Made by a program: the position numbers and the translations under genes | Notes under the pieces: model-generated | What the model saw: only the letters and a program-made list of their open reading frames with translations | Databases searched by the model: none | What the model was told of the DNA's origin: nothing | Assembly (NCBI GenBank): GCA_001599915.1 | Contig: BCIG01000007.1 | Location: 744,001-808,000 of the forward strand | Direction: 5' to 3' | Length of the DNA stretch: 64,000 nt | DNA from: Symbiotaphrina buchneri | Taxonomy: Eukaryota > Ascomycota > Symbiotaphrinales > Symbiotaphrinaceae | In this document: piece by piece, positions 4,411 through 61,059 of the stretch | Layout: the number at the start of each line of letters is the position of its first letter | How positions within the stretch are numbered: position 1 is the first letter of the stretch

Positions 4411-7400
4411 ATGAATCGTTTCCGGACGCGTAAGAAGTCGACTGGTGCCGGATCTCGCTCTGAAACTCCATCGCAAGATGCGGACAGACCGGCGATGCCT
4501 TCACTATCGAGCAAGTCGTTCAGGAAGAAAAAGCAGCAGCCACCACCAAAACTGGAGTTCGATTTAGCAACAGCTCTACCATCTTCAGATGAGTTCCGTA
4601 CGAGTCTGCTCATGCCGAAGCTCTCGGCGCGTTTTAGCATGCTGAGGGAACAAGACGATCCCAACTCGAAACTGGGCAAGGCGAACGATGACAGCGTCTT
4701 ATCTCCAAAACGACAGTCACGGATTGGTTATGGATTCGTCTCATATGTAGGAGGACTCGCGGATATAGCGGAGGTGGACTCGATAAAGGGATCTGTGAAG
4801 GAAGCTGTTCGCCCTCCGTTTGCCAACGAGCGCGTAGGATCATTTGCATCGGACGGCTCCGGTCTCGAAGATGACCCAGCACATCCTGGCGGCGGAATGA
4901 CTCGATCACGCACGCGAGAAGGGAACAACTTGTTCGGCGGAAGGCAAAAGGTCTATAAGATTCCGGTCAGTGGGACAGCTTCCACCAAGACCCTTGCAGG
5001 AGACAACGCTTCACAGAGTTCTGGAGGAGGGATGGGGGGGAGGTTTCTATATGAATACGATGTCAACCCATCTTCCTTCAATGGACTCCGCGAGATCTCT
5101 CAGGAGCATGAAGGGCAACATACCGAGCGTGATTCTCTGATCAACCGCGACTCAGACGAGAAAGATCGAGCAAGCTCGCCCTCTATTCCTGGATATAACC
5201 ACAACCGGGAGACATCATCCTCCACAAATTCAGCGCCTTCGAACATCCGAACCTCAACAGCTGCGACTTCTATAGCCTCTCAAGGTGCTGCGTCTATACC
5301 TGGCAGCGCCGGGCTCCCAGGAAGAGCTCCATCCGCGCAGGGTTCGACCCCGCCCAGTAGCTTGGAGCGTCTAGAGCGGTCAACGACCAAATCGAGGCGC
5401 TTATATGAACAAGGCCTGGATCAGCAACTCCAGGATCAACAGTCATCTGCCCTCAGCCGTCTCGAACACCTGCAACGACAACGCACACTTGGCTCTGGAG
5501 GAGCAGCGGGCGGAAGGCTTATGCACGCTCAGAGTGCTACCAGTCTCCGAGACCGGTACGACCGAACTATTGCTAGACCAAGCCCAGGTGCCACTCGTAA
5601 CTGCAGTCCTATTCCGCCAACCTCACCGACAAGTATCACAAGTTATGACTTGAATCGCCAAGAGTCAGCATCGAGAGCATCAGGGCAAGATTCTGGTGCA
5701 TCTAACTCAAGGCCAATGTCCCCAGTACTCCATCCCGGCATGAGTGAAGAAGATGCTTCCACACTGGCGAAATCCATACAACCACAAGACCGAGGGAAAG
5801 CCACCGCGCTCGGTGCATTCAACAAACCGGCCAAGCAGTTCGACGAGGAGGACTACTCATTGCGGCAGTTACAGCTTCATGGAGGAAAAGTCAGCCCGGC
5901 TTTGCCCAGTCCGCTCTGGAGGAGCTCCTCACCGAGGTCATCGCCGAAGAAAGCCGCTGAGCATAAACTTGGCGGCGAGAATATTCCGAACCCTTCAACA
6001 TCGTCTTCTTTACAATCTCCTACCACAACGTCCTTCCAAGACCAGCTGCTTGCACGTCAAGGAGACCACAGTCGTCATTCATCACGTCCTAGTGGGTCGG
6101 CAATCTATCGAAACTCGGCCACTCTGCCAGTACAAAATGGCACATTCCTCGCAGCCCCCGATGGCAGCGATATGAGCTCACAGGCCGACAGTGAAGCTGA
6201 GACAGAGGAGAAACCGACCATACAGCGTACAGAAAAGGAAGAGGTTGTCGAGGGCACTCATGCTCAACTCGCTGCGCCGGATGCTGGTCGGCATTCTAAC
6301 GAGAACTCATCTCACTGGCATGCTCATCAACCGTCCAACTTTGCAGATATCACTGCAGAAGAGTTGGACGATCTCTATCCACCGAACCATTCAACCTATC
6401 CTAAAGCATCCTCTCCTGGCATGTCAATCGGCTCACTCGGACCTGAGTCGCCTACGCTTGGGCCCGCAGCCGGATTGAATGGTCTCGTTCAACAACACTT
6501 GCGCACTGACAGCAATACTTCTTCGGTCTATCCCGCCCCATCATCATCGGGTTCCGGCCTTCCTAGAGATCCGAGGAGACTGAATGCAGCCCCGAAGAGC
6601 TCGCAAGCGGACGAGTACAGCAGACCAGGAGACAGCAATCCTTGGAATGACTGGGACGGTGATTACACCACCGGTAACGGCTCGCCACTGCGGAACGCAC
6701 CACGCCATCCGAGCCACCTTGTCCCATCTCCGAAATCCAGCAAGGCCAGTCAGTTTTTCGGGGCCGAGCTTCCTATGCAGGATCGAAGCGAGCAATGGTC
6801 AGTCGGCCATGCCAGGGAAGGCAGCAATGAAACGCAGAGGGAACGAGAAGCGTTTACGACTGAGTTGGCAAATAGAAGGAAGATGATCCAGCAGAATCTG
6901 AAGAATGCGGCCGGAAACTCAAGATCTGGTAGCCCAGCGCCCACATCTGACTCTGCCAGAGATAGTCCCCTACGCCCGCCAAATTCTTTCACTAACATCC
7001 TGAAGCCCAAGTCCAGCCGTTCATCCATTAAGCAAGAGGCATCTTCCAAAGCAATGAGGATGCTGGGAATAGGCCACTCGAACGCCAGTACCGGAACCGT
7101 TGCAAACTCATCTCAACTGGACAACCAACAGATCATGCGACAAGAAGATGTCCCAAAGGTTCCAGTCGTCCCGACTCCACAGATGAGGAAGGCTTTGAGA
7201 CAGTACCATCAAAACGCTCAGAAGGAGGCGGGGTTAAAGAGGACAGGAGTCTGGGACAGCCAATCTTCTCCGAAGCAATCGTCATCACCATCCCCACCCA
7301 CCAGCCGTGGCTCTGAATCAGGTGCATCCAGTGGACCGCCTCGCAGCCGCGACGGCAAGACAGGAAATGATCCCATGGTGCCTCTGGAAGAAAACAGATC

Positions 7401-8106
7401 TCGTGCCAACATCTTTGCCAACGTTCGAAATCACTTTATCGAGAATCCACCGAATGCGTCTTTCGCCCAAAACCAAGGGACTGGCAGACCTCCTCTTCAA
7501 GGCTACTTCGACAAACCGTTACCTGCCTATCAGGCGAGGAAGGATAGTCCCTTATTCCCGCCAGCAAAACAATCTAGGAATCCGTCTCCATACGAATCTC
7601 CATTGAACTCAGCATCCACGACGCCTAGCATCACCCCGAGCTTGACCCAAACTGACGCCAACCGTGCAGCAGCCATGCGGAAGAAGTCTGTGAAAAAGGC
7701 TGACATCTCCGAACCCACGCTGTTGTCCACCACCTCAACTCAGGATACCATCAATCTGCCTGCTAGTTCCCACTTTCTTCAAAGCTCCGACACCCCTCCG
7801 CCAGTGCCACCCCTCAATCCTCGAAGGAAACGTCTAGGAAAAGCACAGACTGTCTTCGATTCACTGCGTGGCGAAAGGATGGATCGTGCTCTTCCCTCCC
7901 CCCAGACTCCAGATTACAGCGATGAAGGCTTTGAGCCAAGGGGGCTGAAGAAATCTACCAGCGAAGGAGGAGGGTTGAATGTGATTGCGAACCAACGCGC
8001 CATGACTGGCAACCCTCAGCCTCCAGTGCCGGCCAGAAACCACACGGATCCTCTTCAGCCAAACGCAGCTTATTCCACGGCTGCGGCTGATGGAGCGATG
8101 TTCTGA
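4411..8106 (+). CDS. Large intrinsically disordered conserved-type fungal protein
   Basis: A single uninterrupted frame encodes 1,231 residues with no intron. The N-terminus is basic (NRFRTRKKS, then FRKKKQQPPPK). A more ordered block follows at about residues 48-110, including FDLATALPSSDEFRTSLLMP and ARFSMLREQDDPNSKLGK, and looks like the conserved core. The rest is rich in Ser, Pro, Gln and Asn, with many SP/TP sites and proline motifs (TPPPVPPLNPRRKR near residue 1130, PQPPVPARN near the C-terminus) resembling SH3-binding ligands. There is no membrane segment and no enzyme motif. The proline motifs suggest a scaffold or signalling role at cortex or cytoskeleton, but that is inference. The start is supported by an A-rich context before the ATG. 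I do not recognise a named family. Confidence 0.8.
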   Translation: MNRFRTRKKSTGAGSRSETPSQDADRPAMPSLSSKSFRKKKQQPPPKLEFDLATALPSSDEFRTSLLMPKLSARFSMLREQDDPNSKLGKANDDSVLSPKRQSRIGYGFVSYVGGLADIAEVDSIKGSVKEAVRPPFANERVGSFASDGSGLEDDPAHPGGGMTRSRTREGNNLFGGRQKVYKIPVSGTASTKTLAGDNASQSSGGGMGGRFLYEYDVNPSSFNGLREISQEHEGQHTERDSLINRDSDEKDRASSPSIPGYNHNRETSSSTNSAPSNIRTSTAATSIASQGAASIPGSAGLPGRAPSAQGSTPPSSLERLERSTTKSRRLYEQGLDQQLQDQQSSALSRLEHLQRQRTLGSGGAAGGRLMHAQSATSLRDRYDRTIARPSPGATRNCSPIPPTSPTSITSYDLNRQESASRASGQDSGASNSRPMSPVLHPGMSEEDASTLAKSIQPQDRGKATALGAFNKPAKQFDEEDYSLRQLQLHGGKVSPALPSPLWRSSSPRSSPKKAAEHKLGGENIPNPSTSSSLQSPTTTSFQDQLLARQGDHSRHSSRPSGSAIYRNSATLPVQNGTFLAAPDGSDMSSQADSEAETEEKPTIQRTEKEEVVEGTHAQLAAPDAGRHSNENSSHWHAHQPSNFADITAEELDDLYPPNHSTYPKASSPGMSIGSLGPESPTLGPAAGLNGLVQQHLRTDSNTSSVYPAPSSSGSGLPRDPRRLNAAPKSSQADEYSRPGDSNPWNDWDGDYTTGNGSPLRNAPRHPSHLVPSPKSSKASQFFGAELPMQDRSEQWSVGHAREGSNETQREREAFTTELANRRKMIQQNLKNAAGNSRSGSPAPTSDSARDSPLRPPNSFTNILKPKSSRSSIKQEASSKAMRMLGIGHSNASTGTVANSSQLDNQQIMRQEDVPKVPVVPTPQMRKALRQYHQNAQKEAGLKRTGVWDSQSSPKQSSSPSPPTSRGSESGASSGPPRSRDGKTGNDPMVPLEENRSRANIFANVRNHFIENPPNASFAQNQGTGRPPLQGYFDKPLPAYQARKDSPLFPPAKQSRNPSPYESPLNSASTTPSITPSLTQTDANRAAAMRKKSVKKADISEPTLLSTTSTQDTINLPASSHFLQSSDTPPPVPPLNPRRKRLGKAQTVFDSLRGERMDRALPSPQTPDYSDEGFEPRGLKKSTSEGGGLNVIANQRAMTGNPQPPVPARNHTDPLQPNAAYSTAAADGAMF

Positions 8107-10218: not shown

Positions 10219-12044
10219 ATGAGGCAATTGGAGGCCTTTGCCCTCCTGGGTGTAGCTGTCAGCTGCGCCGCTGCCGCCGAGTCGTCGCGCCCGCGCGGCG
10301 TGGGTCCTGATTGTATGTATCGAGGATATTCATCCCTTGCTGGGGGGTTGAGTTCTATGATACCCATTGCTGACATGTTCTTTCGCAGTCGCCAAGTTCT
10401 ACAAGTCTGCCGATACCTTCACCTGCATCTCGAACCCCAGCATCACTCTCCCTCTCTCAGCCGTGAACGACGACTACTGCGATTGCCCAGATGGCTCTGA
10501 CGAACCTGGCACCTCGGCCTGCTCGCACCTCTCATACCTCTCGCCAGCATCGCTCGACTCGCCGCAGAACATCAGCTTGGCGCTGCCGGGCTTCTACTGC
10601 AAGAACAAAGGCCATCGGCCCAGCTACGTCCCGTTCACATACGTCAATGACGGCGTCTGCGACTACGAGCTGTGCTGTGACGGGTCGGATGAGTGGGCTG
10701 GCGTGGGCGGCGTGCACTGCGAGGATAAATGCAAGGAGATTGGCAAGGAGTGGAGGAAGCAGGATGAGGCGAGGCGGAAATCTCTAGGTGCGGCCAGCAG
10801 GCGCAGGAAGGAGCTGGTGAAGGAGGCGGAGAGGTTGCGGAAGGAGGTCGAGGACCGGATAGAGACGCTGCAAACGGAGATCCAAGGCGCGGAGTTGAGA
10901 GTCAGGGATCTGGAGAAGGAGCTGGAGGAAGTGGAGCGGAAGGAGAAGAGCAAGGTCATCAGGGGCGTCGGAAAGAAGGGCGGAAAGCTTGCCGTGGTGA
11001 TTGAGATGGCAAAGGAAAGGATTGAGGAGCTGAGAGAGGCCGTTATAAGAGTTAGAGGGGAGAGGGATAGCAGTACTGCCAGGGTCAAGGAGCTGGAGCA
11101 GATACTGTCCACGTTCAAGGAGGAATATAACCCCAACTTCAATGACGAGGGAGTCAAGAGGGCCGTTCGTGCCTGGGAGGATTATGCCGCTCGCGATAAA
11201 GGTCCCGAGCCTGATGCGGCACATGACCGTGATCTCGACGAGATCACCAAGCCTGACACGCCAGAGAGTGGTATCAATTGGGCCGAATTCGATACAATGG
11301 AGGGAGAGAGTGACGTGGATCTTCGTAAGTTGTTACATTTCCCTCAAAGCTTCCATGTTCTAACGACCTTGCACAGTCTACAATTTCTCAGCTTACCTAC
11401 CTGCATCTGTTCAACACTGGATCGATGCGAAACTGCATGAACTCCATATGTGGGCGATCGACAACGGTCTACTGGCCAACCCTGCTTCATCCACCGCCGC
11501 CGGTTCCGAATCTCAAGCGGTCGTGGACGCGCGCAACACCCTCACATCTGCGCGCAACGAGCTGAACGGCAGAATTTCGCAACTCGAGTCCCACCGCGCG
11601 GATCTCTCCGCCGAGAAGTACGGGCCATCAGAAGTCTTCCGGGCGCTCAAGGGCACGTGCATCTCCACCGACTCGGGCGAATACACCTACGAGCTCTGCT
11701 TCCTGGACCGGGCCAAGCAGAAGCCCAAGAAAGGCGGCGGCGAGACCAACATGGGTACCTTCACGGGCCTCACGACCATCCACGTGGACGAGGAGGTCGG
11801 CGCCGACGGCAAGGGCCTGGGCAAGGGCGAGCGCATCGCCATGAAGCATGAGAACGGTCAGCACTGCTGGAACGGCCCCAACCGCAGCACGATGGTGGTG
11901 CTGGCGTGTGCGGAGAAGGACGAGATCTGGAAGATTGTCGAGGAGGAGAAATGCGTCTATCGCATGGAGGTTGGCACGGCGGCGGTGTGTGATGAGAATG
12001 TGGCCGGGCCGGAGAAGGAGCAGGGCAGGAAGGACGAGTTGTAG
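10219..12044 (+). CDS. Glucosidase II beta subunit (ER N-glycan processing)
   Basis: Three exons (10219-10312, 10389-11324, 11377-12044) encode 565 residues. A signal peptide (about residues 1-21) precedes GVGPDFAKFY. Two LDL-receptor-A-like modules follow, with the diagnostic DDYCDCPDGSDE and VCDYELCCDGSDE acidic motifs. A long charged coiled coil spans about 120-270. The C-terminal half holds the mannose-6-phosphate-receptor-homology lectin domain (YTYELCFLDRA, MGTFTGL, GQHCWNGPNRS). The protein ends in KDEL, the ER-retrieval signal. It would partner the GH31 alpha subunit, recruiting it to glycans so that the two inner glucoses are trimmed during the calnexin folding cycle. The intron junctions restore conserved protein sequence exactly: GPD-FAKFY and DL-LYNFSAYLP. 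A TACTCCGTA motif lies 10 bases after the stop. Confidence 0.95.
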
Positions 12045-12843
12045 AACGAAAAGTACTCCGTATGCTTGCTAGATTTACATAGATTTGTGGTTGGAGAGGA
12101 CTATGAATGTGGAAGAAAATGTCTTCTAAAAGTTCTGCGTAATTGCTGGCGTGTATTTTATGGCAGTGTATTTTATGGCAGTAGGGAGATAGAGATGAAC
12201 GTACAGGACCGCTCCTCAAATCTCGGCGAAGCGACGTCGCATCCTCTCTCACGTTTTCCGTCCGCACTTGCAGCCACAGTCGACTTTACCTGACATCTCA
12301 TTCACCCAACAACGTCAGACACCTCGGTGATTAAGCCTTCGTGTTACTCCGTACGCTGTGATTGCAAGAAACTCATTCCAGATTTCTAAAGAAAAGTTCC
12401 AGACGTCTGCTGCCTTATGCTAGCATGGATTTCTTTATTCTCCATTTGCGTTTCCCGGATCCGGGTGCAAATGGGATCTTTGTTGCTGCTGCTGCCTCCG
12501 CTCTTTCCTTGCTGGTCGCAAATTATGTCCCTCCCTAGCAGAGCAACTTGTCTTCGTATGCTTTCATTATTGTCAGTCTATTGTGTGTAAATATACCGTT
12601 TCCGTTCTGTATTTGCGCTCAAGGTAGTCGGACTCGAATTGCTTTATCCGGCGACTTGCCTGCGGGTTACTCGACTGGAGACAATGCATTTGAGAGGATC
12701 AATACCCCGTATCCACTGCACAATGCCTACAGGGAATTACTTGAGGGACCATCTAGCGACAAGTTGCAGAAGAAGCATAGAGCGCTCGTCGACTCCAGGA
12801 CCTGACAGTACATTTTGCATCATCCGACGCAGGAACAGTCAAA
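12045..12843. other. Intergenic region with two TACTCCGTA motifs
   Basis: This holds the 3' flank of the glucosidase II beta gene and the promoter of the first pseudo-OTU gene. TACTCCGTA occurs at 12054-12062 and again at 12345-12353. A short direct repeat (GTATTTTATGGCAGT) lies near 12152-12182. A weak open frame from about 12548 to 12805 begins with hydrophobic residues but has no ATG and no family resemblance; I do not call it a gene. Confidence 0.5.
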
Positions 12844-15800
12844 ATGGCTTATCCGCCCAGAGAGCCCCTTCACATGAGACGTTTGGCGGAAACTGTGGGG
12901 CCCAGTACAGAGTCCAACGATCGCGATTATAAGTCGCTCTACCGGGCACTTGCCCGGCAATTGGAAGGAGATCCAAAGAAGCATCCTGTGGTTCGCCGGC
13001 ATGTTCTGGATAGTTATCTACGGATCAAAACAGATCCAGTGCATCCGCTTTTTCGAGAGTATCCCCAGCCGACCTATGATGAGAGAGAAGAGGACCCATT
13101 TCTTACAGCTCTGGCCTGGCCGGATGAGAAATTACATGAGGATGTTCTGAGTTTTATTGCGGACGCTCTAGGAATAAAAGTCTGCGTCTACAAGCGGGAA
13201 GTTGGCACTCAAAACTTTGAAGTCACAGGTGAATATGGGGATCAGGAATTTCCCATTGTCCAAATCCTCCAGGAATCAAAGCATGGTGTGACACAGTACC
13301 ATACGCTTTACGAAGATGATACGGGTAGGGCTCTGATCGCATTCATGAGGGCTTATAAGGCAAGCAAAGCACCAAACAGACCAGAGGTGTACGAAGGACG
13401 GTGGAGTCACAGAGAGGGTCAACAAATACATCCATCATGGGCTAATTACGAGGCTCCTGCAGTGGCTGTCAGCAAGGAGGTAAGCAGAGAAAATCATGAG
13501 TTTCGCCATACACTAAAGCGGGATATAGCATAACGACGCGAACCTTCCGAGACTCGATAAGTCGATGTACTGTTTGTGCGTTTTCAATGTCTCCGTCGAC
13601 AAGACAAGTCAAATCGAGGAAGCCATCGACCTCTTCGAAAAGGTCATGCAGCGTGCTCCCGCCCAGGAAGTCGCCCGACACGGCCCAGATGGCTCCGTTC
13701 GTAGATTGCGCCGTTATGTCGGCGCAGATGTGGAATTCCGATATGCGGAGAATGAGAACACAGTTAGTGGGGAATTTTCCAATTTTCGGCAGTCGGAGAG
13801 GTTGTGCGGGGTGTTATCCCTAGCAGTTGATCGCTTCGTGGTTTTCACATTTTATATTCACGACATGCTTGCAATACCCCATAAAAATACCGTCGGCGAG
13901 GTACAAGTCTCATCAGGTACACGAGAATTACTCCCTCTAACGCGAACTAGATGCTTCCCCTCTTTCGAAAGATTCTCCTCAACCCGGATTATGCCAAGTT
14001 CTGGTTCCAGTACACGAATGATATAGCTTGTCTGGATGCCACCCTTGCGTACATGCACAAGGGTACCGAGCGCCCGAGACAGAATCGATATATATACTAC
14101 GCCGGTGACTCAGACAGAAGGGATACTTCAACTTTCATTCCTCGATTCAACACAAAGCCGGCAAAGGGTTGGGCATGGAATGCCAAAGTCTACAAAGGGC
14201 CACGGCCGCGTGACCTTTTCTTCCCAGTCACAGGTAACGATAATCCCGATTGCCCATTCCACATCCCGAATTCAACGGCGGAGCACCTCAACATACCGAC
14301 CTGTCCTTGTGATAAAGGCAATTTTGACGTCCTCAATGTCTTTGACTATATTTGCCGTTCACAGGGAATGGTGCATATTGACAGAAGGGAAGGGGAGACC
14401 GAGGAAGGAGAAACGAAAAGAGAGGGAAAAGCGAAAGAAACGAAAGCCCGCAAGAAGACTGAGAAAGGAAGCCTTGAGCGTCATAGATGGTTCGAAGTGC
14501 GGGAAGGGTTCAACTATGACAGGTTCAATGAGCTGTTATTCAAGAACCACCGGCTACATGACCTATTCATGTACTTCAAGAAATGCTCGGAAATAAGGGT
14601 ACCTGATGATGTCTATACTGCCATCCAGGAGGAGGATAAAAGGCAGGGAAGATTGCCGAAAGGCGGCTTCTTCATGAGCATGAGCCCCGGCTACATGGAG
14701 CGTGATCCTCAACACCATCAATTGGGATATATCATGGGCGATGTATGTATTTCCACGTGCCCCAACAGACCGGGTAGAGGGATTAGCTAATGTATAATTG
14801 GTCACAGGTCATATCTGTAGCAATGACTGTGCGCATGGCCACTACAACGGACGACAGGAAATTGTCAGTTGCGATTGTTTTTCCTATCTTGTTCCTTGTT
14901 GATTTGCCAACTGACGGATCTTGCAAATATAGTCTGGCGGAAACCCTCCTAAACTACAGGGAACTGAATAGCGACTATGCAACCGCAGCGCGGCAGCAAT
15001 CGACTTTGTGGACCTTCAGAAACAGCGACCGTCTGGGTGTGCCTTTGATCAGCGACTTCCCGAAGATCTGGCACCGTGATGACATTTCAAAACTCGATTG
15101 CGAGGAACCAAAATCCGTCGACTCACACTTCAATGTCACGAACATACGGGATGCTCTCGATATCTCCTATACCGAGCATGAGGACCAAGTAGACGCGGCA
15201 AGGGCTGGTCTGGATGCCGCGCTGGGCAGCTGGGCAATGCAAAACCAATCCGCTGGCTTTTGGGGGCGCAAAGCCCAGAGCAACACAGGCGGGCCCACCC
15301 AGCTGCAGAAAATGGAAAAGGAAGCAAGAACACATGCACTCTCGAGCCTCTTCGACCCGACGAAGTTTACCTTGCCAGACCTGTTGACTCACGAAAGCGA
15401 GCATAATCCAAAACATCGTCTGGTCTTCAAGCCGGTGGTTCCAGCTGGGACGGCGCACGAACGCGATCTCCGTGCGGTGCTGCGAGACCCGACCCACCAG
15501 GGCCCACAGGTAGGCGTCCTTCCAGGCGTCAAACCGGACCAGGACTTCTCAGCAATCGATCCCGAGTCACGAAACCGGACCGACTGCGCCCTCTCCGCCT
15601 TCAAAGACCGCGCAGGACTCCTCGCGGCCGCCTCCGGAGACCACGAATCGGAGCCCGAGATCACCACGGAATACGCATACAACTGGAAGATCAACAAGAC
15701 GACTAACGGCGGCGATGGCGCCGCGGCCGCTGTCCAAGCAGGAGGAGGTCCTAACCTCGACACTGAGCCGTATGCGGTCAAGGATTACATCTTTGATCGG

Positions 15801-15941
15801 AGAGGCACGAAGGACGCGAATAATAAGCGCAAGGCGGATCAGATGGTTCGTGACTGGGTGCAGCAGGATTGGCCGGCGATTGATCAGGCGAGACTGGTGA
15901 GAGAGGCGAATGCGGGGGTTACGAGGCGGAGGTTGATCTGA
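12844..15941 (+). CDS. Pseudo-OTU multidomain protein, copy A (intact)
   Basis: Five exons (12844-13479, 13529-13900, 13951-14742, 14808-14863, 14933-15941) give 954 residues. Residues about 26-165 follow the OTU cysteine-protease fold pattern: DYKSLYRALARQLEGD, then an HPVVRRHVLDSYLR helix, FIADALGIKVCVYKRE, and finally TQYHTLYEDD. The catalytic Cys of DGxCLFRAL is Ser31, and the His of HYxSL is Gln151, so protease activity is unlikely. Downstream come LCVFNVSV (about 225), a CPFH...CPCDKGN cluster (Cys437, His440, Cys454, Cys456) that could bind zinc, a Lys/Glu-rich insert (about 487-515), and a C-terminal region with FDPTKFTLPDLL. No signal peptide is evident. The ATG context (AAAATGG) is good. 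A paralogue with the same four intron positions lies inverted downstream. Intron 4 (69 nt) is in frame and stop-free, so its retention would add 23 residues. Function is unknown; ubiquitin binding without cleavage is a guess. Confidence 0.8.
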
Positions 15942-16987
15942 GAGGATTCTGGGGGTGTGATTGGATAGGAAGTTTGAGTCATGAGGTGGGAGAGGCGATT
16001 TCGGGTGGTGAAAGGAGTGGATGAAGAGTGTTTTTGGTGTTTTCTGTTTGGTTTCCTCGGTTTCCTTGATCGATCTGTCTTGACTCTGGGCTTGTTGGTA
16101 GTTTTGTCTTTTCACTGGTTCGCAGCAGGGTGATCCTATTTATTCTACTACTCTCATAGGTAATATTAATCACGGTGATATGTCAACCAGAAGCCTCATC
16201 ACAAGTGCTGCCTCGTTGGCGGTAACGCTGCAGGACGTTGTAAGGCTACACACTTCAGAATCTGGCCCTGCTGCTGCCATGCTATATATTCCGAACTACC
16301 CACTAACCCACGAAATTCTCGAACAAATTACTATACGTGACACATCCTCCTCATACCTAATGCCGTTCTTACTAGCTCAGATTGAGATTCGTTATGCTCA
16401 TCACTACCGTAACCCGGCCCGCTCGGCCGTTCTTCAACTTATCATATCTTTCTTGAAATAGACCATACCAAGACAGAGGAGAGGAAAAACAGGGAACATT
16501 GTTTCCTGTGGTGTTTATTGAACCCCCGGAAGCGGATATTTCTTTGTGTAACGGCTAGGATGCAATTATACTGGCTCTTCAGAACAAACAAAGCATGCAG
16601 TAAGCTCACAGCTGGTTGCAGTAAGAGCCTCCTCTGATATCATAAGCGGCTGGGGAATGATATCCGCATCCGGCTGTATTCAGTTTAATTTCCGGCAAAA
16701 TTATGCTCGCTGCCTGCGTTTGTGGGTGAGGAAATCATGGCGTTTTTCGGGGGTAGATGGTGGTTGGTCAGCTTGATTCTTGTCGAAAAGGAGAGCAATT
16801 GTTAGGATAGAAACACACGGTATGCGGACTACGACGGAAGAAAAGTTCACCTTGGTGCCAGAATCCCTTAGGAGAATAAGAAATTTGATTAGAATTAGTA
16901 GACATATCAGATATTGCGTGTTACGAACTGTAGATGACCCCTTGTCCTTATATCTCCACTCCACACAATCTTCGACGGCGCTTAATA
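15942..16987. other. Spacer between two convergent paralogous genes
   Basis: About 1 kb separates the 3' ends of the two pseudo-OTU copies. I see no open frame with coding character. The sequence is AT-richer than the flanking exons. I found no obvious inverted arms beyond the genes themselves, so the convergent arrangement does not look like a simple fresh palindrome. Confidence 0.5.
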
Positions 16988-19900
16988 TCACCACTGGACC
17001 ATATTGTCTGTCACGACCACCGGCTGAGGTGCCTCAGTCAAAGGTTCATTCGGGTCAATGGTCAATCTCCAATAATCCTTGCCGAGGACAGCGTCCACCT
17101 CTTCGCAGTCATCCCGGTAGATCCTCCCACTGTTAACGTAGACGTCGTTGACGAGCCTAGGGTCCCACACCGGTATCGGCGCGTCTACCTGTCTCCAAGG
17201 CTCGGCTTCCAACGTTAGTTGCCCCCGTTCGTAGTTTGTTACTGCCCACGCGAAGGTCTTAAGTTCTTCCATGGTGCCGTCCTCGTACGCTTCAGTGATG
17301 CCTCGAATGGAGGAACCGTAGGCTAAGACTCTGTTGATCGATGCAGAGCTCCACTCGAAAAGGAAACCGCGGGGAAATCCCAGTCTATTGCGTCGCAGTT
17401 TCTTAACCTTGTCCAGTAAGCTTAGGTTGTGAGAAGCGGCTGGGCGAATAACAGGCTTCCTCCTCAGCCGGAAGACTCTTTTATAACGACTGGTGTCGAC
17501 CAACAAGCATGGCAGCTGAAACTTGGTAGGGTCGAAAGTTCACTTCTCAACTATTGACCGAGTCGCGGCCCGGAGTTGCACAACTGAAGGATTCGCCGAC
17601 TCGCGTTGAATCTGGTTGAGATCTTGGGTGGCCTTTGCCAACTTTTCATATGCATCTTCAACATCTCTCTCTTGTGCAACTTGAGACCTATGAGCATTTC
17701 TCGATCTCTGCGCATCTTTTACCTTGTCGTCGCGATCGCGACGCTTGTGTTCGGCATCACGTATCTTGTCGACATAGTATGATTTCACGTTCCCGTACGC
17801 CCATTGGACTGACCTCGCACGCTCCTCATGTTCAGCGTACGAGAGCGGCAAAACAGAGCCAGGATTCCCGTGTCTGCGGAATTCCTCAAGCTCACGATAT
17901 TCCCATTCACGCCAATTTCTACCTGCATCACCATCTGGTAGTCTCGGCCAGTCGACAATTGATGGAATACCATATGAGCCCACTTCTGGTGCCTGGAGCC
18001 GAGCTTCATTCACTGGGCGGGCACCAATAGTCGTTTGGTGGACATAGTCCAAGGCTCCGCGCTAATCTTTTCCTACCGAGTCAGTGCAATTTACACCAAA
18101 TGCAGGTAATACTACTTACAGATGTCGATCATCTGTCGTAGTCAAAAATCTCATAAAAAGCGCAATGCCGATAACCTTCTTCGCGTCAGCGCATTCAACA
18201 TCGCGCTCTCGACGTTTGTACAACTTACATCACCCATAGTGTAGCCGAGCAGGCACATGTCTTCTTGCTCTTCCATCTCAGGGTTCATGTCCTCATAGAA
18301 GAGGTCATACCGTTCAATTGGGTAACGACAGCGGCTCTCTTTGAAGTAGTGCAGCAAAGGGTACAGACGGTTATGCCCCAGGATCCATTGTAAACAGGCT
18401 CCATAGTTACAACGGTGTCTGGAGTCGAACCAGTAACGCTTGCTCATATCATTCTGCCGGTCCGTCTCTTCTGTACCATCCTTCAACGACTTTACACCGA
18501 GGTCGCGACAGATGTGGTCAATAACGGTTGTTATGTCCACGTTGCCCCTGTCACAGATGCATGAAAAGATTCGAGGCGCCTTCGGGTCATGTGGCACCTT
18601 CGGGTCATGTGGCTTGTGGAATGGGCAGTCCGACTTCATCTCCCCGGGCATGTAGAGATTTTCAGGTCGTTTCCCCTGAAAGACGGGATCTGACCACTTC
18701 CACCGGTCGGATTCGTCTCGTGTCACAATGGTCCGTTTGATCGGCACGAATGCGCCGCTGACATCGGCGCGAGCTCGGTACATATGTGCTAACGTAGCAT
18801 CAAGAGCTTTGAGATCGCCCTGGTAGTTGAACCATAATTTGATCAAGTCCGGTCGGAAGATGACGTGCTTGAGCAGGTATTCTATCTACACGTTTTGAAC
18901 TGCCGTCAGTAGAAGGAGGACAGAAAATTAGAGGAATGCTCACAGCGTCCAGGACTTCACGCCCGGGTTCGTTAAGCATATGCCGGAGATATATGGTAAA
19001 GACGACATGCCTGTCAACTGCTAATGAAAGCACGCTGCAAAGCCTTTCCGCACCCTCATCAGAGTCCAGGCCGGCGATCCTCTGTGCATGCTCATCGTTA
19101 TCATCCAGCCGATCCTTGGCGTAACAGAATTCAAGATCCACTCCAACGTATCTATGCAAAGTCCCTCGAGCACCATCCTGCCCTAGATGGAACCGTTCTT
19201 GCGCTGGGGCTCTCTGAAGGACCTCATCAAGTAGAGCAACCGCCTCTCGCATCTGATTTGGGTTTGAGACCGAGACATTGAACACGCACAAGCTACGTAT
19301 CTCCCCACTAAGATTCGGAAGTGCTCCTTCCTATAACACCTTTAATCAAAGCAGTACTAAGCATGATATGTGGCTTACCTTTCCGTTATAATGATGAACC
19401 GTTATATTATCTGCTGTTCCTTCGAATTTCCAGCGGACCTCGGAGATCTGCGGCACCCCTTCTTTGGTCCGGTACTTCTCGATCTTTTCTTTCATGAATT
19501 TGATCAATGCGTGACCGGTGTCATCCTCTGTAAGGCTGTCATAGCGGACCGTTGTACTTCCTGTGTCGACTGTCTGGCAAACATTCGCAATAGGGTAGCT
19601 CTGTTGCCCATGATGGCTCACGGGAACTGTGGCTTTTCGAGATCCCGTTGGCCTCTGGAAGACACAGATATGAATGTCGAGCGCGTCGGCAATGAAATTC
19701 AGGACTTCTGTTGACTCGTTTGGGGAGCAGGCGTCAGGGTAGGATAATGCACCAATAAAAGGCATAGACTCTGACAGACCCTTGACAAAAGTGGTGTCTA
19801 GCTGTTTATATGTTCCATGGAGGGGATGCTCCTGATCCAAATAATACCTTATAAAGTTGTCCAACACAGCATTCCTTACATCATGATATTTAGCAGCGTC

Positions 19901-20128
19901 GCCTTCTAATTGCCGTGCCAGAGCCCTGTAAAGTGTTTGCTGATCTGAGTAGTTCTCTGCAATCACCCGATTCGAGGCTGTACCACCAAGATAAAGGCCT
20001 CGGAGGGCTTGTAGAAGTAATCCTCGGTCCGCGGAAGTCTCTCTCAGGGCGCCACCAGGCAAGTCTACTCCAGGGTAAGGCCTGCCTTGCCCGTTGTTGT
20101 CGTTGGTCCGCGGAGTCGGATTGGCCAT
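16988..20128 (-). pseudogene. Pseudo-OTU multidomain protein, copy B (decayed paralogue)
   Basis: On the - strand the exons run 20128-19379, 19330-18944, 18885-18229, 18175-18120 and about 18061-16988, with the same four introns and phases as copy A. The N-terminal OTU-like domain reads SDQQTLYRALARQLEGD, with Thr65 at the catalytic Cys position; the motif TVRYDSLTEDDTG has Arg at the catalytic His position. Shared blocks with A include LCVFNVSV, RLCSVLSLAVDRHVVFT, the CPFHKP...CICDRGN cluster, LGYTMGD, TTTDDR and FDPTKFQLP. Early in exon 5 the frame matching copy A is lost, consistent with a small deletion after LAEP, and a TGA at 17540-17542 interrupts the frame just before FDPTKF. Both lie in the last exon, so a shorter N-terminal product of about 670 residues remains possible. 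A short tandem duplication (HDPKVPHDPKAP) is also specific to this copy. The upstream ATG (20128) follows directly from a conserved-looking leader. Confidence 0.75.
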
Positions 20129-20295
20129 TGCCTCAAGTTACTCGTGTTGAAATAAGACAGAAGATCAGAGCAGTAAAGCAGCGTTTCGAAGATTCTGATC
20201 GAGGAAACAGGAATAATTGTGGCTGACACTCCTGCTCCGCACGATGTTGGAGAGGTCCCAATGCAGAGACACCATCCTTACGTATATTGCAACGA

Positions 20296-20701
20296 CTATT
20301 CGATATGCCTCTTCCTCCAAGGCCGGACGCCTAACTGAGAGCCATTGACATGCCCTTTGATGTAGCATGTTTCCGGATAGTGAGTGCTGACATGCAAGTG
20401 CGGCGTTTGGCCGGAATCTTTCCAAGTGATGGTGCGAAGGATGTAGTCCTCGTTCCGGAAATACTGTCCCGCTTTCAGAAATCTGACACTCGTAGACAGA
20501 GAAAATACAGGCCGTGAAGTTGCTTTGTTGCCCAGGCCCGACCCCTGTTCCCGCGCACGCGACGTCCCGCAAGACCACTCCATGACACTTGAAAGGAACA
20601 ATGGCAACTTTCTCAGCTTTCCTTGGAGAGAGTAAAATTTCCGAATGAGGCCTAATATCAGATATGTTTTTAATGTGCTGTATCAGCGGGCCGGCGTCCA
20701 A
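20296..20701 (-). pseudogene. Possible small gene relic upstream of pseudo-OTU copy B
   Basis: Two overlapping - strand frames read like protein. One runs ...FKCHGVVLRDVACAG...NFTACIFSVYECQISESG. The second continues GQYFRNEDYILRTITWKD...HLHVSTHYPETCYIKGHVNG to a stop at 20296. Together they resemble one small protein whose frame changes near 20480. I recognise no family and see no clear ATG or intron that would join them. It could be a decayed gene, an unrecognised intron or chance. Confidence 0.25.
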
Positions 20702-21044
20702 AGAGAGTCGTGCCTAGGCGGATTTGCGGTTGTACAAATCGTCAGTCGATTTGGCGACTGGGTTCGCTTCAACCTGCTTCGCTTTCACTTTCAGCCTCGT
20801 TCGCTGCTGCATTCGGCAACAACAAACATTCCTGTACCACCTGTGACGATTCCTAGGACCGGATCCTATTAACCTCTTTAACTCTCCATTGTTTCTGTAT
20901 CTTTACACGCGCTCTTTCAAATACGGAAACGGCCATCCTCCTTGACTGGCTGTCCGGCTGTAGGCTCACTCGATTCCGCATCAGCGTACCCACCTGGAGT
21001 ACGCGTCAAGGTAACAGCCGATACGAACCCGTGTTTCTTCGCAA

Positions 21045-22901
21045 ATGGCACAATTGTTAGCCAGAACATCGAAGGACCAAATCTGGATTGCGCCAGACCT
21101 GCTATATCCTGACCCACTTGCGGATAGCTTCTATAGCAGCGAACTTTCACCCTGGACGCACGCCAGACCCATACGCAGTTGCTTGAGGACACGAGAAAGC
21201 GTTGATGCCGAACCCAGCCCCACTATACTCCCACAGAGCTCTGAAGAGCTTCCCAGCGAACTGGATGGCGAGGCAAGCACACGGGCGCTGCAGAAACGGG
21301 TCCGTATGCGGATGAGAGTAAGATTCACGACGGACGGCAGCGCCGAGGACTTCCAGCCCATTTCGGCTCCAGTCATTCAAGGAACAAGTGTCGGCAAATA
21401 TGGTCTCACCGACTTGGGTGCTGAACCTGTCTTTTCCGGGACAACAGTTGTTTCCTTGCCTCAGCGAGAAACAAAAGCTTGCACCGAGGAGCGAGGTCAG
21501 TCTTCAGAAAGACCAGGACTAGCGAGAGACGTCTCTGCAGCAGGAATACATCTCGGAAGACAGAACCCTGGCAGGCTAGAGAGGCTCATATCTGCAAGCG
21601 CGGCCTTCAGTCCCCATAGATGGCCTTCGCTCCACAGCAACGCCAGCGTAAAACCAAAGCCACCGCGATACCTTCAGACTCTCATGGCTTTTCCGACATC
21701 GTCAGAGACTGGGGCAAACGCAGCAGAGGCAACAGACTCGGCGCCTGGACATCTTGAAACACCAGTCCCTCCCAAAGATCATTATACTGAGGACAATCAA
21801 CATGGAAAACCAGAGTCACCGAGTACTTCTCCGACAGAAGTAGGTATGCAGCGAGACGTTGACAGGCAGGAAGACGGAACGATAGGAGCGCACGCCACAT
21901 CTGATCTTAAGCCTCCCACAGAATCAACGGATAGTCCTGGGTGGCCATGGCCACGGTCTGCAGCGCCCAGTTTGAAAAGTGATGCCGACGTATCTTCACA
22001 GGATGATAATCCCAACAATAACGAGGAGGATCAAGCCAATACCGTGTCGACTGGAACTTCGACCACCCGTAGTTCCGCGTCAGTGAACAACGTTTTATTC
22101 TTTCCCCCGTTACCCTCCAGGAAATCGACCTTAGAATGGCAGAACCCGCCAGATTTGAACTTGATCGATCCATTCCATTGTGAAGGTCCCGGCGGTGGCA
22201 TGACTGCGGCCGCTTGTAAGCCGGAACTAGCCCTGGATAGTCCTTCACCAGTTGATGCGGACATAAATCTGGGCTTGGGGGACCCCTTGAAAATTTCTCA
22301 GTCCTCAATAATAGTCAAATCATCCAAGCTGCGCCGAAGTCGTACATTCCATACTCAAACAACGCCAACTCCGCGTTTATACGACATTATGCGAGGTGGA
22401 AGCGCGCTTGGCTCGAGTTCTCGAGTACGGCGAAAGTCGGCGAATCCTCCAAGAGAGACCCCTAGACCTCGGCGGCCAGAGACGGACCGGGGGATTGTAC
22501 CATCGTCTCGCGGTGTTGCTACTCCAACTCTGCTTCGTTCAAACACCTCTTATATACCGCTGAGCCGGTCACGGACAAGTAATCCCGAGTCACCACTGGC
22601 CCCTCGCTGGACGTCCGCCCAAGAAGCTCTCGAAGGGTCAATTGATAATCCCACAGTAGGGACAGCCTCTTCGGGTTCGATCAGTACGTCAAGCATAGTG
22701 ACCCAGAGGATCATACCGCCAGTGGCGTCGCAACCAGCCGTGCGTAATGATGTTGCAGGTAATACTGTACCTCGTACTAACCCCGGTGATGACTTGTTGG
22801 CTTCTCCCGTTTCCCGCTCAACGCCAGGGACTAGTCGAGCGACATCTTCAAACTCCATACCAACGAGCAGTGCAGCAATCAGTGTTGACTGGTTCGGCTA
22901 G
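21045..22901 (+). CDS. Disordered Ser/Thr/Pro-rich protein of unknown function
   Basis: One uninterrupted frame encodes 618 residues. Residues 1-60 are the most ordered-looking part (KDQIWIAPDLLYPDPLADSF). A basic strand follows at about 85-95 (KRVRMRMRVRFTTDG); its RVRF matches the RVxF docking consensus for protein phosphatase 1, though such a short motif is weak evidence. The remainder is low-complexity with many SP/TP pairs and an Asn/Asp/Glu-rich patch (DDNPNNNEEDQ), and it ends in ISVDWFG. No membrane segment, enzyme motif or zinc site is visible. The long intron-free open frame in moderate-GC sequence supports a real gene. I do not recognise it. Confidence 0.65.
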   Translation: MAQLLARTSKDQIWIAPDLLYPDPLADSFYSSELSPWTHARPIRSCLRTRESVDAEPSPTILPQSSEELPSELDGEASTRALQKRVRMRMRVRFTTDGSAEDFQPISAPVIQGTSVGKYGLTDLGAEPVFSGTTVVSLPQRETKACTEERGQSSERPGLARDVSAAGIHLGRQNPGRLERLISASAAFSPHRWPSLHSNASVKPKPPRYLQTLMAFPTSSETGANAAEATDSAPGHLETPVPPKDHYTEDNQHGKPESPSTSPTEVGMQRDVDRQEDGTIGAHATSDLKPPTESTDSPGWPWPRSAAPSLKSDADVSSQDDNPNNNEEDQANTVSTGTSTTRSSASVNNVLFFPPLPSRKSTLEWQNPPDLNLIDPFHCEGPGGGMTAAACKPELALDSPSPVDADINLGLGDPLKISQSSIIVKSSKLRRSRTFHTQTTPTPRLYDIMRGGSALGSSSRVRRKSANPPRETPRPRRPETDRGIVPSSRGVATPTLLRSNTSYIPLSRSRTSNPESPLAPRWTSAQEALEGSIDNPTVGTASSGSISTSSIVTQRIIPPVASQPAVRNDVAGNTVPRTNPGDDLLASPVSRSTPGTSRATSSNSIPTSSAAISVDWFG

Positions 22902-36116: not shown

Positions 36117-37866
36117 CTAGATCTTCGCCCTCCCCTCCCTCCCGCCCCTCACCGGGCCCGTCCCTCTCCTCCACCCGGCCTGCTCCGCAATCATCTCCGC
36201 CGCGCGCTCCCCAACTCCAAGAACCGTCAACATCGGATTCACAGTCGTGATCTCCGGAAACACGCCTGCGTCCGCGATCCTCACTCCTTTTAATCCACGG
36301 ATCCTTAAGGAGGGGTCGACCACGGCTAGTGGGTCCTTGGAAACGTCGCCCATTTTTGTGGTTCCGCACGGGTGGTACACCGTGTGCGCGGCGCGGCGCG
36401 CGTATTCGGAGAGATCCTCGTCGGAGGTTACAGCGGGCCCGGGGGCGACCTCGCGTTTGAGCCAGCGTGCAAAGGGCGGCTGGGAGGCGACGCGGCGCGC
36501 GGCGCGCAGGCCCGCGACGAGGGTGTCGGCGTCGTAGGCAGAGTCGTCGGTGAAGTACCGGAAGTCGAGCGCCGGCTTGACGGACGGGTCGGAGGAAGTG
36601 AGATAGAGTTTGCCCCGCGAGCGCGGGCGTGGGATGTTGGGCGTCATGCAGAAGGCGTCGATGGGCGTGGGATACCCCAGCCGGGAAGTGTTCAGGCAGA
36701 AGGGGATCTGGTAGCAGTGCATCATGATGTCGGCGGTGTGGGACTCGAGCGGGTCGGTGGGCGAGAGGGAGTTGGAGGGGGAGGGGGAGCGACGCAGGAA
36801 GATGCCCGCGTCGGAGTCCATTGTTGTTTGGTTCGGTGGTACGGGGGTGTTGAGTTCCCAGATTATGATTGTTTCCGGGTGGTCTTGTAGGTTGAGCCCG
36901 ACGCCGGGGATGTCGGCCACGACGGGGATGGAGAGCGCGGAGAGATCGGCAGAGGGCCCGATGCCGGAGAGGAGAAGCAGGCGGGGGGTGTCGACCGCGC
37001 CGGCGCAGAGGATGGTTTCGGTGCGGGCGCGGAGGGAGGGGGTTTCGCCGCTCTGCAGCGTGACGGAGACGCCCGTGACTGTGTCGCCCTCGACGTTCAC
37101 GCGGCCGACCCAGGCGTTAGTCAGGATGGTTAGGTTAGGGCGTTTCTCCTCACCCCTCAAAATGGGGTGGATATATGCCACGCTCGCGCTGCTGCGCCGG
37201 CCGTCGTCCGGGTTGTAGCTCACGCTGAAGAAACCTACGCCCTGCTCGATGGTGCCGGTGCGCCGGATCTGCTCGTTGAAGTCCTCGATCACGGGGATGG
37301 AGAGTGCGCTGCTGCAGGAGGACACCCAGTCCTTGCACAGCTGGTTCCGGTGCCGTGCGTGGACCGGCTGGACGGTGTTTCGTAGGTTGTCGAGTACGCG
37401 CGTGAAGGTGTCGAAACCCCACCCGGTGCAGCCCGCGCGCTCCCAGGCGGCGCAGTCGTAGGCTAACGGACGGAAGGAGATCAGTGTGTTGTGCGAGGAG
37501 CACCCGCCGAGGACTTTGGCGCGCGAATGGCGGATGTGGGAGTTGCCTAGGGGGGTATACGGTCAGTATCCTCTTTCATCCAGCCAAGGGCTCTTCTGAG
37601 CTATGGTGGTGTGGGGTCGTACCCATTGGTTGTTCAGTAGTTCCATAATCGTAATCAAGTTCCCCGCCTAATAGGCTCAACCAGTCTTTGAGCAGCAGCA
37701 CGCGGTCATCCATGAAGTCGCTGGGCCCGGCTTCGATGAGCAGCACGCGCTTGTGAGGCAGGTATTCGGCGAGCCGGCTGGCGATGACGCAGCCTGCGGT
37801 CCCGCCCCCGACGATGATGTAGTCGTAGGAGGACGCCTCGGAGGGGTGCAGCGTGTTGGTCGTCAT
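36117..37866 (-). CDS. GMC oxidoreductase, probable choline oxidase
   Basis: Two exons on the - strand (37866-37623, 37546-36117) encode 557 residues. The FAD-binding turn is [20 protein letters not shown] signatures follow: GGCSSHN after the intron and [19 protein letters not shown] in mid-protein. The catalytic pair is the His of [10 protein letters not shown] and the Asn of [15 protein letters not shown], as in choline oxidase. Splicing restores [19 protein letters not shown]. The enzyme would oxidise choline to betaine aldehyde (and possibly on to betaine), making hydrogen peroxide. The assignment as choline oxidase rests largely on its divergent neighbour 697 bases away, a betaine aldehyde dehydrogenase. 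Other GMC alcohol oxidases remain possible. An in-frame upstream ATG (37959) would add 31 residues without clear targeting character. Confidence 0.85.
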
Positions 37867-38562
37867 GGTTGAGGAGGTGGGAGGTTGATGGTGGTGGAGG
37901 ATGGAGATTGGGCGGAGGAGAAGGGGCACTCTTGGAAGTGGTCCTGTACTGGAGCACAAGAGGGCGGGAAGGGGGTATATTAATTGAATGGGGACTGTGA
38001 ATAATATGGATGTGTCTAGGAGAGCAATGTTTGTTGCCCCTAGTCTTCCGTCCTAATCTCTAAGAAATTTTCTGCCTCCTCCGCATTATTATCTTTGCTA
38101 ATCACGTCAGGAGGTCCACAGTCGTGCGATAAGTGCCGAACCGGATAGCGCCAGATAGTGGGCTTGATAGCTCAGCCCTATATGGAAACCGTTGCCGGAT
38201 CGAGTGAAAATTCGCAGCGAAAAGAAAAAAAAAGACTGCGGATAATCGAGCCGCTAGTGTGATGCCCGGTAGAACCGTAGAAGCATTTTTGGTGCGAGTC
38301 TTGCTAGAAACCGATTGGGCAAGGTTTTCCTGACGGAGCCCGGCGCTAGGCGATACGATTGGCCGGCTTGACCTCATTCGAGAGAGAGTTGAAATTTGGG
38401 CGGTGACGAGAGGATGCGGACACTGCTTGTTGCCTCTCGGTGGACGATGATATAGACAACTACACGTACTACTCTTTCTTTTTATTTTTGAGGCCTCCTG
38501 TGATAGCCAGGGCCATCTTCAATTATCCTCAACGTGCGAAAAATTTCCCCATCATCAGCATC
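37867..38562. promoter_or_regulatory. Shared divergent promoter of the choline-to-betaine gene pair
   Basis: About 700 bases lie between the start codons of the oxidase (-) and aldehyde dehydrogenase (+). Sites matching the fungal GATA-factor consensus HGATAR occur (CGATAAG near 38128, AGATAG near 38153), which would fit nitrogen control, but single matches are expected by chance. A TATATTAAT patch near 37976-37984 could be the core promoter of the - strand gene. Confidence 0.55.
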
Positions 38563-40137
38563 ATGGCAGACCCAACGACATACCCCTCCCGACAACTCTA
38601 CTACAACGGGCAACCACAACGCGCAACCTCCGGCGAGACAATAACCTCCTACAACCCCTCGACCGGCTCTCCACTCTACACCATCCAAGTGGCCTCACAC
38701 TCCGACATCGACGCCGCCATCTCCTCCGCACAATCCGCCTTCCCCGCCTGGTCGCAGACGAACCCCATCGAGCGCGCCCGCATCCTGCTTAAAGCCGTGC
38801 AGATCCTCCGCGCACGCAACGACGAGATCGCGAAGATGGAGACGGATGATACGGGCAAACCCTTCTCCGAGACGAGTGCGGTGGACGTCGTTACCGGCGC
38901 GGACGTACTCGAGTTCTTCGCCCATGTCGTTGGCGGAGGCGGCATGAATGGCGAGACGGCGCGGTTGAGAGAGGATGCTTGGGTGTATACTGCGAAAGAG
39001 CCATTGGGTGTTTGTGCGGGCATCGGGGCATGGAACTATCCTATACAAATGTGCGCCCTATTCCTTGCCCCCCGAATGCTGTCCCAGCTTAACAACTGAC
39101 CCTTTTTTCGCGCCAACAGTGCCCTCTGGAAATCCGCACCCTGTCTCGCAGCAGGGAACTGCATGATCTACAAACCCTCCGAATTCACCACCCTGCACGC
39201 CCTGACGCTCGCCTCCATCTTCACCGACGCCGGCGTGCCCCCAGGGGTGTTCAACATCGTCAACGGGCCCGGCTCCGTCGGCGCCTACCTCACGTCCCAC
39301 CCCGGCATCGCCAAAGTATCGTTCACAGGCCAAGTCTCCACCGGCCAAAAAGTCGCCGCCGCCGCGGGCGCAGGCATGAAGTCCGTAACGATGGAACTGG
39401 GCGGCAAGAGCCCGCTGCTGATCCTCGAGGACGCAGATTTGGAGAATGCAGTCTACGGCGCTATGATGGCGAATTTCTTCTCCTCGGGCCAGGTCTGCAC
39501 GAACGGCACGCGCGTCTTCGTCCCCGAGCGTATGCACGACGCTTTCGTCGCGCGCCTGCTGCAGAAAATGCCCGAGGTCCGCGCCGGCGACGTCATGCAC
39601 CCGCACACCAATTTCGGCCCGCTCGTCAGCAAAGCGCACTACGATAAAGTCACGCGCTATATCCGCGCCGGCATCGAGTCCGACCGGGCAAAACTCCTCT
39701 ACGGCGGCGCCGAGCCTCCTCCCTCCCTATCTCCAAACTTCAAAGGTGGCTACTGGGTGCAGCCCACGATCTTCACCGCGTGCACCGACGACATGCTCAT
39801 CGCGCGCGACGAGATCTTCGGGCCCGTGCTGTGCATCCTGACCTACACTTCCCTCGCAGAAGCCATCCAACGCGCCAACGCGACGCCGCTCGGGCTGGCC
39901 GCGGGGGTGTTTACGAGGGATGTTAATGCAGCGCATAAAGTGACGGCGAAGCTGCAGGCGGGCATCACGTGGGTTAATACCTGGGGAGAGAGTCCGGCGG
40001 AAATGAGTGTGGGCGGCTGGAAGATGAGTGGGTTGGGAGTGGAGAATGGGAGGAGGGGGCTGGAGGGCTGGGTTCGGAATAAAAGTACCCTCGTGGAGAT
40101 GGGGGGGAGGGTGGGGACGGCGTTTGCGAAGTTGTGA
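38563..40137 (+). CDS. Betaine aldehyde dehydrogenase (ALDH family)
   Basis: Two exons (38563-39050, 39120-40137) encode 501 residues. The junction restores [21 protein letters not shown]. Key ALDH features are PWN-like AWNYP, KPSEFT, the nucleotide-binding [10 protein letters not shown], the general base Glu in [10 protein letters not shown], the catalytic Cys in [11 protein letters not shown], and EIFGPVLCI. The length is standard for the superfamily. The betaine-aldehyde assignment comes from overall pattern and from the divergent choline-oxidase-like neighbour; the product would be glycine betaine, an osmoprotectant and a nitrogen and carbon source. The start was placed at the ATG after CAGCATC because it gives the usual short N-terminus; an upstream in-frame extension would add 41 aromatic-rich residues. 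Confidence 0.92.
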
Positions 40138-60177: not shown

Positions 60178-61059
60178 ATGGCGACGGCTACGAGACATGT
60201 GCAGAAGATAGAAATCAATTGTGATATGGGCGAAGGCTTCGGCAAGTGGAAGATGGTATGTCGGACGACATCTCCCTGTTGATGACCTTGATGCTTATCG
60301 CCCGGATCATCAGGGCCCAGATGAGCAGCTCATGGATTATATCGACGTGGCCAACATCGCCTGTGGCTTTCACGGCGGGGATCCCTCGATAATGCTGAAA
60401 ACGGTGCGGATGGCAAAAGCCAAAGGCGTCAAAGCTGGCGCACACCCGGGGCTCCAAGGTTAGCATGACCAGCCTGTATCAACTTCCAGCAAAAGCTCAA
60501 GATCGTGGCAGATCTCTTCGGCTTCGGCCGACGAAGGATGGAAGTCGACCCAGAAGACATGTACGCCATGATCTTATACCAGGTCGGCTCCCTCAAAGCC
60601 ATGCTCGATGCAGAAGGCGTGCCACTTCACCACATCAAGCCTCACGGCGAGCTGTATTTCTATATGCAGCGAGACCCGGCGATCATGCGCTCTGTGCTCC
60701 GCGCATGCAGCCACTACGGGGTTCCGGTTTATGCGTGTAAGAACCCGGCGCAGCAAGCCATGTGCGATGAAGAAGGTGTGGAGTTCATCGGCGAGTTCTA
60801 CCCGGATGTCGAGTACACACCTGACGGCAATCTCTTGCCCATGAAGGCTTCGAGAGAGGCGACTGTGGCGGAAGTCGAGGAGAGAGTCGTTCAAGCGGCG
60901 GAGAAGGATGTGAGGAAGGACTTTCAGGGTGGGCAGGTAAGACTGGGGTTCAAGGGCGAGCCGTTCAGTATCTGTTTGCATTCGGATAAGCCTGGAGCAT
61001 TGGAAAATGCGAAGGCGACGAGAAGGGTGATTGACGAGATCAACAAGAAGAGATATTGA
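60178..61059 (+). CDS. LamB/YcsF family protein (PxpA, 5-oxoprolinase subunit A-like)
   Basis: Three exons (60178-60255, 60314-60458, 60512-61059) encode 256 residues, the normal family size. Conserved blocks are [69 protein letters not shown] and [12 protein letters not shown]. The His/Asp residues in these blocks form the proposed active site. In bacteria PxpA works with PxpB and PxpC to open 5-oxoproline to glutamate with ATP; no B or C partner is visible here, so the fungal reaction is uncertain. In-frame ATGs at 60088 and 60055 would add an Arg/Gly-rich leader that could be mitochondrial; a TTATCA promoter-like site at 60058 argues against the longest form. It is divergent from the Dur3-like gene. 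Confidence 0.9.

Follow-up and report, generated by a model that had tools for sequence, protein, structure and literature searches.

An old tail-to-tail gene pair in Symbiotaphrina buchneri with a putative inactive OTU-like domain and one disrupted copy

Two convergent paralogues and their surroundings

The window analysed here, a 64-kb stretch of Symbiotaphrina buchneri DNA, contains two convergent genes, A and B, that lie tail-to-tail with a stop-to-stop spacer of 1,046 nt. Gene A (12844-15941, + strand; 3,098 nt) is intact and is modelled with five exons, at 12844-13479, 13529-13900, 13951-14742, 14808-14863 and 14933-15941, whose spliced product has 954 residues. Gene B (20128-16988, - strand; 3,141 nt) is a paralogue of A that is disrupted in its fifth exon. 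Its first four exons are placed at 20128-19379, 19330-18944, 18885-18229 and 18175-18120, and exon 5 begins at 18066 or 18072, two plausible acceptors for intron 4 of which one was picked by eye, both yielding the same frame. These exon-intron structures are predictions from the sequence that are supported by homology. GT..AG introns are predicted at four aligned positions, with phases 0, 0, 0 and 2 in both genes, and exon 4 (14808-14863, +, in A; 18120-18175, -, in B) has 56 nt and carries a TTTDDR motif in each. A branch-like YTRAY motif occurs in three of the four introns of A and in all three of the B introns inspected, a set that left out intron 4. A preliminary description of this DNA had reported two genes of about 3.1 kb facing one another across a spacer of about 1 kb, with four introns at matching positions and phases, a 56-nt exon 4 in both and a 954-residue product for A, and our models agree with it in all of these respects.

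Homology between the two copies exceeds chance. The encoded proteins align with 86 identities in 203 positions for exon 1 (BLASTP E 7e-35; Z 21), 59 in 121 for exon 2 (E 2e-33; Z 25) and 79 in 209 for exon 3 (E 5e-32; Z 24), the Z scores being taken from 200 shuffles each, and 10 of 18 residues are identical in exon 4. Homology is weaker in exon 5, where comparison of A with two pieces of B gave Z scores of 3.0 and 4.5 and best BLASTP E values of 0.001 with the first B piece and 4e-7 over a 40-residue stretch opening with the FDPTKF motif (15351-15368, +, in A); more than about 40 residues past FDPTKF, the C-termini of A and B have no clear likeness. A and B are an old, inverted, tail-to-tail duplication of one multi-domain gene. 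The preliminary description had also called the duplication old, and its age follows from the fourfold-degenerate sites, which are identical at 25 of 101 positions, a chance level of agreement. Across 551 aligned codons of exons 1 to 4, identity is 52.5% at first, 64.4% at second and 32.7% at third positions, in a protein-guided alignment that favours positions 1 and 2. Since fourfold sites have reached chance level and the first two codon positions agree better than the third, both copies were probably under protein-level constraint for most of the time since they were duplicated.

Neighbours of the pair in the window include a Zn(2)-Cys(6)/Fungal_trans_2 regulator, an NDT80/PhoG gene, Rtf2 and a glucosidase II beta-like gene; these and further neighbours, like the short introns, fit a filamentous fungus. 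A choline-oxidase-like GMC frame at 36120-37562 (-) has choline oxidase as its best solved match (E 2.2e-96), and a betaine-aldehyde-dehydrogenase-like frame at 39163-40134 (+; E 4.9e-110) lies near it in divergent orientation, which suggests a pair of genes for a glycine betaine pathway. Two open reading frames in the same frame, 38407-39096 and 39100-40134 (+), the second of which is the aldehyde dehydrogenase, are split by a single TGA at 39097-39099 that is likely spanned by an intron. A frame at 60469-61056 (+) belongs to LamB/YcsF (Pfam E 1.2e-44), the family of one 5-oxoprolinase subunit, and two long frames, 21045-22901 (+; 618 aa) and 4411-8106 (+; 1231 aa), have no Pfam match at E 0.01. 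Scans of the 64-kb window gave no Rfam match at the gathering threshold and no tRNA.

The break in exon 5 of gene B

Gene B loses its reading frame in or near the start of exon 5 (18006-18072, -), where the spliced frame differs from the one in which homology with A continues. From either acceptor the spliced frame closes at a TGA at 18008-18006, giving a product of 636 or 638 residues. The downstream frame that resembles A is not the spliced one; it runs from 18061 to 17543 and then from 17539 to 16991, and is interrupted within its A-homologous stretch by an in-frame TGA (17540-17542, -) directly before FDPTKF. Beyond that stop lies an open continuation of 183 codons (16991-17539, -) that begins with T-FDPTKF and whose residues 2-41 are 45% identical to A. 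Two statements of the preliminary description therefore stand in part. Five readable exons, claimed there for both copies, are found in A, whereas B stops in exon 5 (TGA 18008-18006; TGA 17542-17540); the motifs quoted as common to the two copies are all present, but FDPTKF appears in B only after its TGA.

Over 1,071 nt the A-homologous frame holds a single stop, where the two alternative frames hold 13 and 24, and the exon-5 protein of A aligns over 17614-17417, flanking the TGA of B on both sides (tblastn E 2e-5). Taken together, these observations indicate that a frame coding until lately has acquired two or more defects, or that the assembly contains two errors. An intron that would excise the TGA was looked for by eye, and no usual donor and acceptor pair that keeps the frame was seen. 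No marked signal of RIP-type mutation was found: TpA/ApT is 0.70 in B, while gene A has 0.59 and two other long stretches have 0.53 and 0.62, and a second RIP index is 1.15, compared with 1.25-1.32.

Compared with its intact paralogue, B has an interrupted reading frame, for which an assembly error is a possible cause. If B were intact in the organism, with the frame break and the TGA both due to errors of sequencing or assembly, each gene would encode a full-length protein. We regard this as somewhat unlikely: the scarcity of stops downstream speaks for it, as do the clean exons 1 to 4 of B, but it needs two separate errors about 0.5 kb apart, and no such defect occurs in gene A at a distance of 1 kb. 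It is also conceivable, though to our minds rather doubtful, that B is functional and encodes a truncated protein of about 636-638 residues that has kept the OTU-like region and a Cys/His cluster described below and has lost its end. Open exons 1 to 4 and GT..AG introns at conserved places are what such a gene would have, but the frame downstream has stayed open and A-like, which speaks for a recent loss rather than for a short form maintained over a long time. Unless the assembly is wrong, gene B as it reads here is a decaying or truncated copy.

The N-terminal domain and the regions that follow

The preliminary description had called the N-terminal part of both proteins a pseudo-OTU domain, and we find moderate support for a domain whose fold may go back to that of the OTU (ovarian tumour) deubiquitinases (MEROPS C64, C85 and C87). 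In A the region lies at 12916-13353 (+; about residues 25-170, limits approximate) and is outlined by profile, PDB sequence and Foldseek matches; the stretch of B that matches exon 1 of A and includes the region lies at 19430-19954 (-). A profile built from exon 1 of A and B matched PDB sequences of OTUD5 (E 0.0021 and 0.0029) and OTUD3 (E 0.15), which make up three of its four matches at E<=10, the fourth being NUCLEOLAR PROTEIN 3 (E 0.44). Exon 1 of A alone had two matches at E<=10, both to OTUD5 (E 0.041 and 0.055); exon 1 of B alone had four matches, with no OTU chain among them, and the Pfam OTU model (PF02338) had no hmmscan match to A or B at E<=10.

The structural comparison points the same way from a weak model. 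An AlphaFold2 model of exon 1, built from two sequences, is poor (mean pLDDT 43, pTM 0.38). When it was searched against the PDB with Foldseek, which scores amino acids too and is hence not independent of the sequence match, ranks 1 to 33 were all OTU proteases, with DUBA/OTUD5 first (E 0.022). Among the best 50 of 116 matches at E<=10, there are 42 to named OTU proteases and six to other proteins, and two further rows, 3von and 4a5u, are presumably OTU-type as well. E 0.001 is not reached by any match in this search, and superposition is poor, with TM-scores of 0.18-0.29 and rmsd up to 19.9 in the top rows. Against a viral structure library, the best 50 of 196 matches were mixed and included a few OTU proteins (best E 0.071). 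A model of exon 3, likewise built from two sequences and worse than that of exon 1 (pLDDT 33), returned no fold match at all, and serves as a weak negative control in that poor models of gene A do not always match OTU proteins. The moderate support for the pseudo-OTU assignment comes from the OTUD5 profile match at E 0.0021 and from a Foldseek list that is coherent but stays below threshold and derives from a poor model.

A chance likeness was also weighed, in which the domain would not be OTU at all and the LYRAL..GD motif would be a coincidence. The silence of the Pfam OTU model and of B exon 1 on its own would fit such a coincidence, and so would the poor model, the low TM-scores and the lack of a structure match below E 0.001. 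We nevertheless consider it unlikely, because OTUD5 ranks first in both the sequence profile and the fold search and the exon-3 model draws no fold match.

If the domain is of OTU origin, it would appear to have lost its active site. Like OTUD5/DUBA and OTUD3, A and B contain the catalytic-helix sequence D-x-x-[C/S/T]-L-[FY]-R-A-[LV], and OTUD5/DUBA is also the best fold match of the (poor) exon-1 model. They differ from these enzymes in carrying Ser or Thr in place of Cys, in having no motif His and, for A, in about 740 further residues of unlike make-up. In the profile alignment the catalytic Cys of OTUD5 (DGACLFR) sits over Ser31 of A (12934-12936, +) and Thr65 of B (19936-19934, -). The column that precedes the conserved Tyr of the second motif, which we take from the HYxS motif to be the site of the catalytic His, holds Gln151 in A and Arg195 in B, and two places further on there is His in A and Asp in B. 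Exon 1 has one Cys (C114) and one His (H67) common to both copies, each outside the catalytic motifs. Under the alignments used, the OTU catalytic Cys and the OTU catalytic His are both absent from A and B. We also considered the Ser or Thr as a functioning nucleophile, and think it unlikely because A and B share no His around the HYxS-type motif.

Exon 3 encodes a Cys/His cluster that is conserved between the copies. In A it lies at 14251-14355 (+; exon 3 residues 101-135) and reads C-x2-H-x13-C-x-C-x14-C, and in B it lies at 18508-18627 (-) and comprises C87, H90, C109, C111 and C126 of the exon; the residues kept in both are C101, H104, C118, C120 and C135 in A numbering. The exon has 5 Cys in one copy and 8 in the other over 209 aligned columns, and four Cys columns are shared; none of 20,000 shuffles, which ignore the fitting of the alignment, gave that many. 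The loop of the B cluster has been stretched by an 18-nt tandem duplication (18575-18592 and 18593-18610), so that 18 residues separate the His from the next Cys in B compared with 13 in A. This pattern makes a putative metal site possible; no family (Pfam at E<=10) or fold match to the cluster region backs one. Profile matches of exons 2 and 3 to the PDB (best E 3 and 0.57) were dismissed. Further along, the region that ends at FDPTKF is probably helical. One exon-5 piece of B has five weak sub-cutoff Pfam matches (best Seryl_tRNA_N, E 0.01), which at a guess reflect a coiled coil.

Relatives and a possible role

The preliminary description recognised no named family here, and as far as our comparisons go that judgement holds: there is no Pfam or NCBIfam model at cut-off, and the best PHROGs match has E 0.032. 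With hmmscan, exons 1 to 4 of A and B matched no Pfam family at E<=10. Across nine exon pieces, NCBIfam gave three sub-cutoff matches that were rejected (the best, a sigma-factor model at E 0.0024, scored 17.6 bits against a cut-off of 206), and the six PHROGs matches are to families without assigned function. Judged against Pfam, NCBIfam and PHROGs, A and B represent an unnamed protein family. Scans of viral contigs with exon 1, 2 and 3 profiles and of prokaryote contigs with the exon 1 profile confirmed no relative, each scan using two short peptide patterns that distant relatives may escape. Since the searches for relatives covered viruses and prokaryotes, fungi may well contain many members of the family annotated as "hypothetical protein".

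An origin of A and B in a mobile element or virus that carried an OTU domain, for example a Helitron, was weighed as well, since OTU domains are present in Helentrons and Helitrons (PMC5148889, PMC9741609). We hold it to be very improbable. The Pfam matches of the A and B pieces include no Rep or helicase model, the three viral-contig scans confirmed no relative, and each gene has four predicted introns. The longest listed repeat in 11000-22000 is 32 nt, which says little, as Helitrons need none.

Inactive members of the OTU class have been recorded elsewhere. In the relevant passage of one source, OTULINL and vertnin are the inactive human OTU homologues named (PMC10318531), and a passage on OTULINL states that it does not bind ubiquitin and attributes the retention of its dead domain to a presumed role in protein-protein contacts (PMC7862380). 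By these descriptions, OTULINL/FAM105A is like A and B, as we read them, in that its OTU-class domain has a defective active site, but it is OTULIN-related and membrane-located, and the likeness is one of description only (PMC7862380, PMC10318531). A review of fungal deubiquitinases gives S. cerevisiae and M. oryzae two OTU genes each and C. neoformans a single one (PMC9599802). Fungal OTU1 and OTU2 are akin to A and B as fungal OTU-class proteins, a kinship by description and not by sequence comparison, but are classed in that source as putative deubiquitinases (PMC9599802). Within the open-licence PMC literature, no fungal pseudo-OTU protein was found by title or abstract opening.

Our proposal, in which we place about even confidence, is that A and B stem from an old inverted duplication of a multi-domain gene with a dead OTU domain, that the protein acts as a non-catalytic binding scaffold, and that A is the working copy and B has recently been broken. 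We infer the fold, metal binding, partner binding and expression of the two products. Each product would begin with an OTU-derived domain that lacks catalytic residues, followed by a mixed region whose conserved Cys/His cluster may bind metal and then by the probably helical region up to FDPTKF. The dead OTU domain might bind a partner, with ubiquitin or a ubiquitin-like protein as candidates, and the remainder of the protein could serve as a scaffold. Gene B would have been under long protein-level constraint before recently losing its C-terminus through the frame break and the stop, and would now be either a young pseudogene or the source of a protein cut at about 636-638 residues. Since the catalytic residues appear to be lost, a non-catalytic mode of action seems likeliest, and we have moderate confidence in a non-catalytic scaffold. 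The simplest view of a dead OTU domain within a large protein is that it serves for binding. The example of OTULINL, which does not bind ubiquitin, shows that a dead OTU domain is not necessarily a ubiquitin reader. Going further, one could imagine a group of fungal multi-domain pseudo-deubiquitinases that combine a dead OTU domain reading ubiquitin or a ubiquitin-like protein with a new Cys/His metal module, and that diverge quickly as inverted pairs under birth-and-death in the style of recognition genes; we consider this distinctly improbable.

The locus had been put forward as an undescribed protein system. We find no sign of joint action by A and B, and B reads as broken; a duplication in which one of the copies decays is nothing unusual in the turnover of gene families. 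The find is a modest one, an unnamed protein family and no new system. If the fold is confirmed, it would make a fungal addition to the few recorded inactive OTU domains, tied to an unnamed multi-domain architecture, and would offer a defined place for asking what role a dead deubiquitinase has in fungi.
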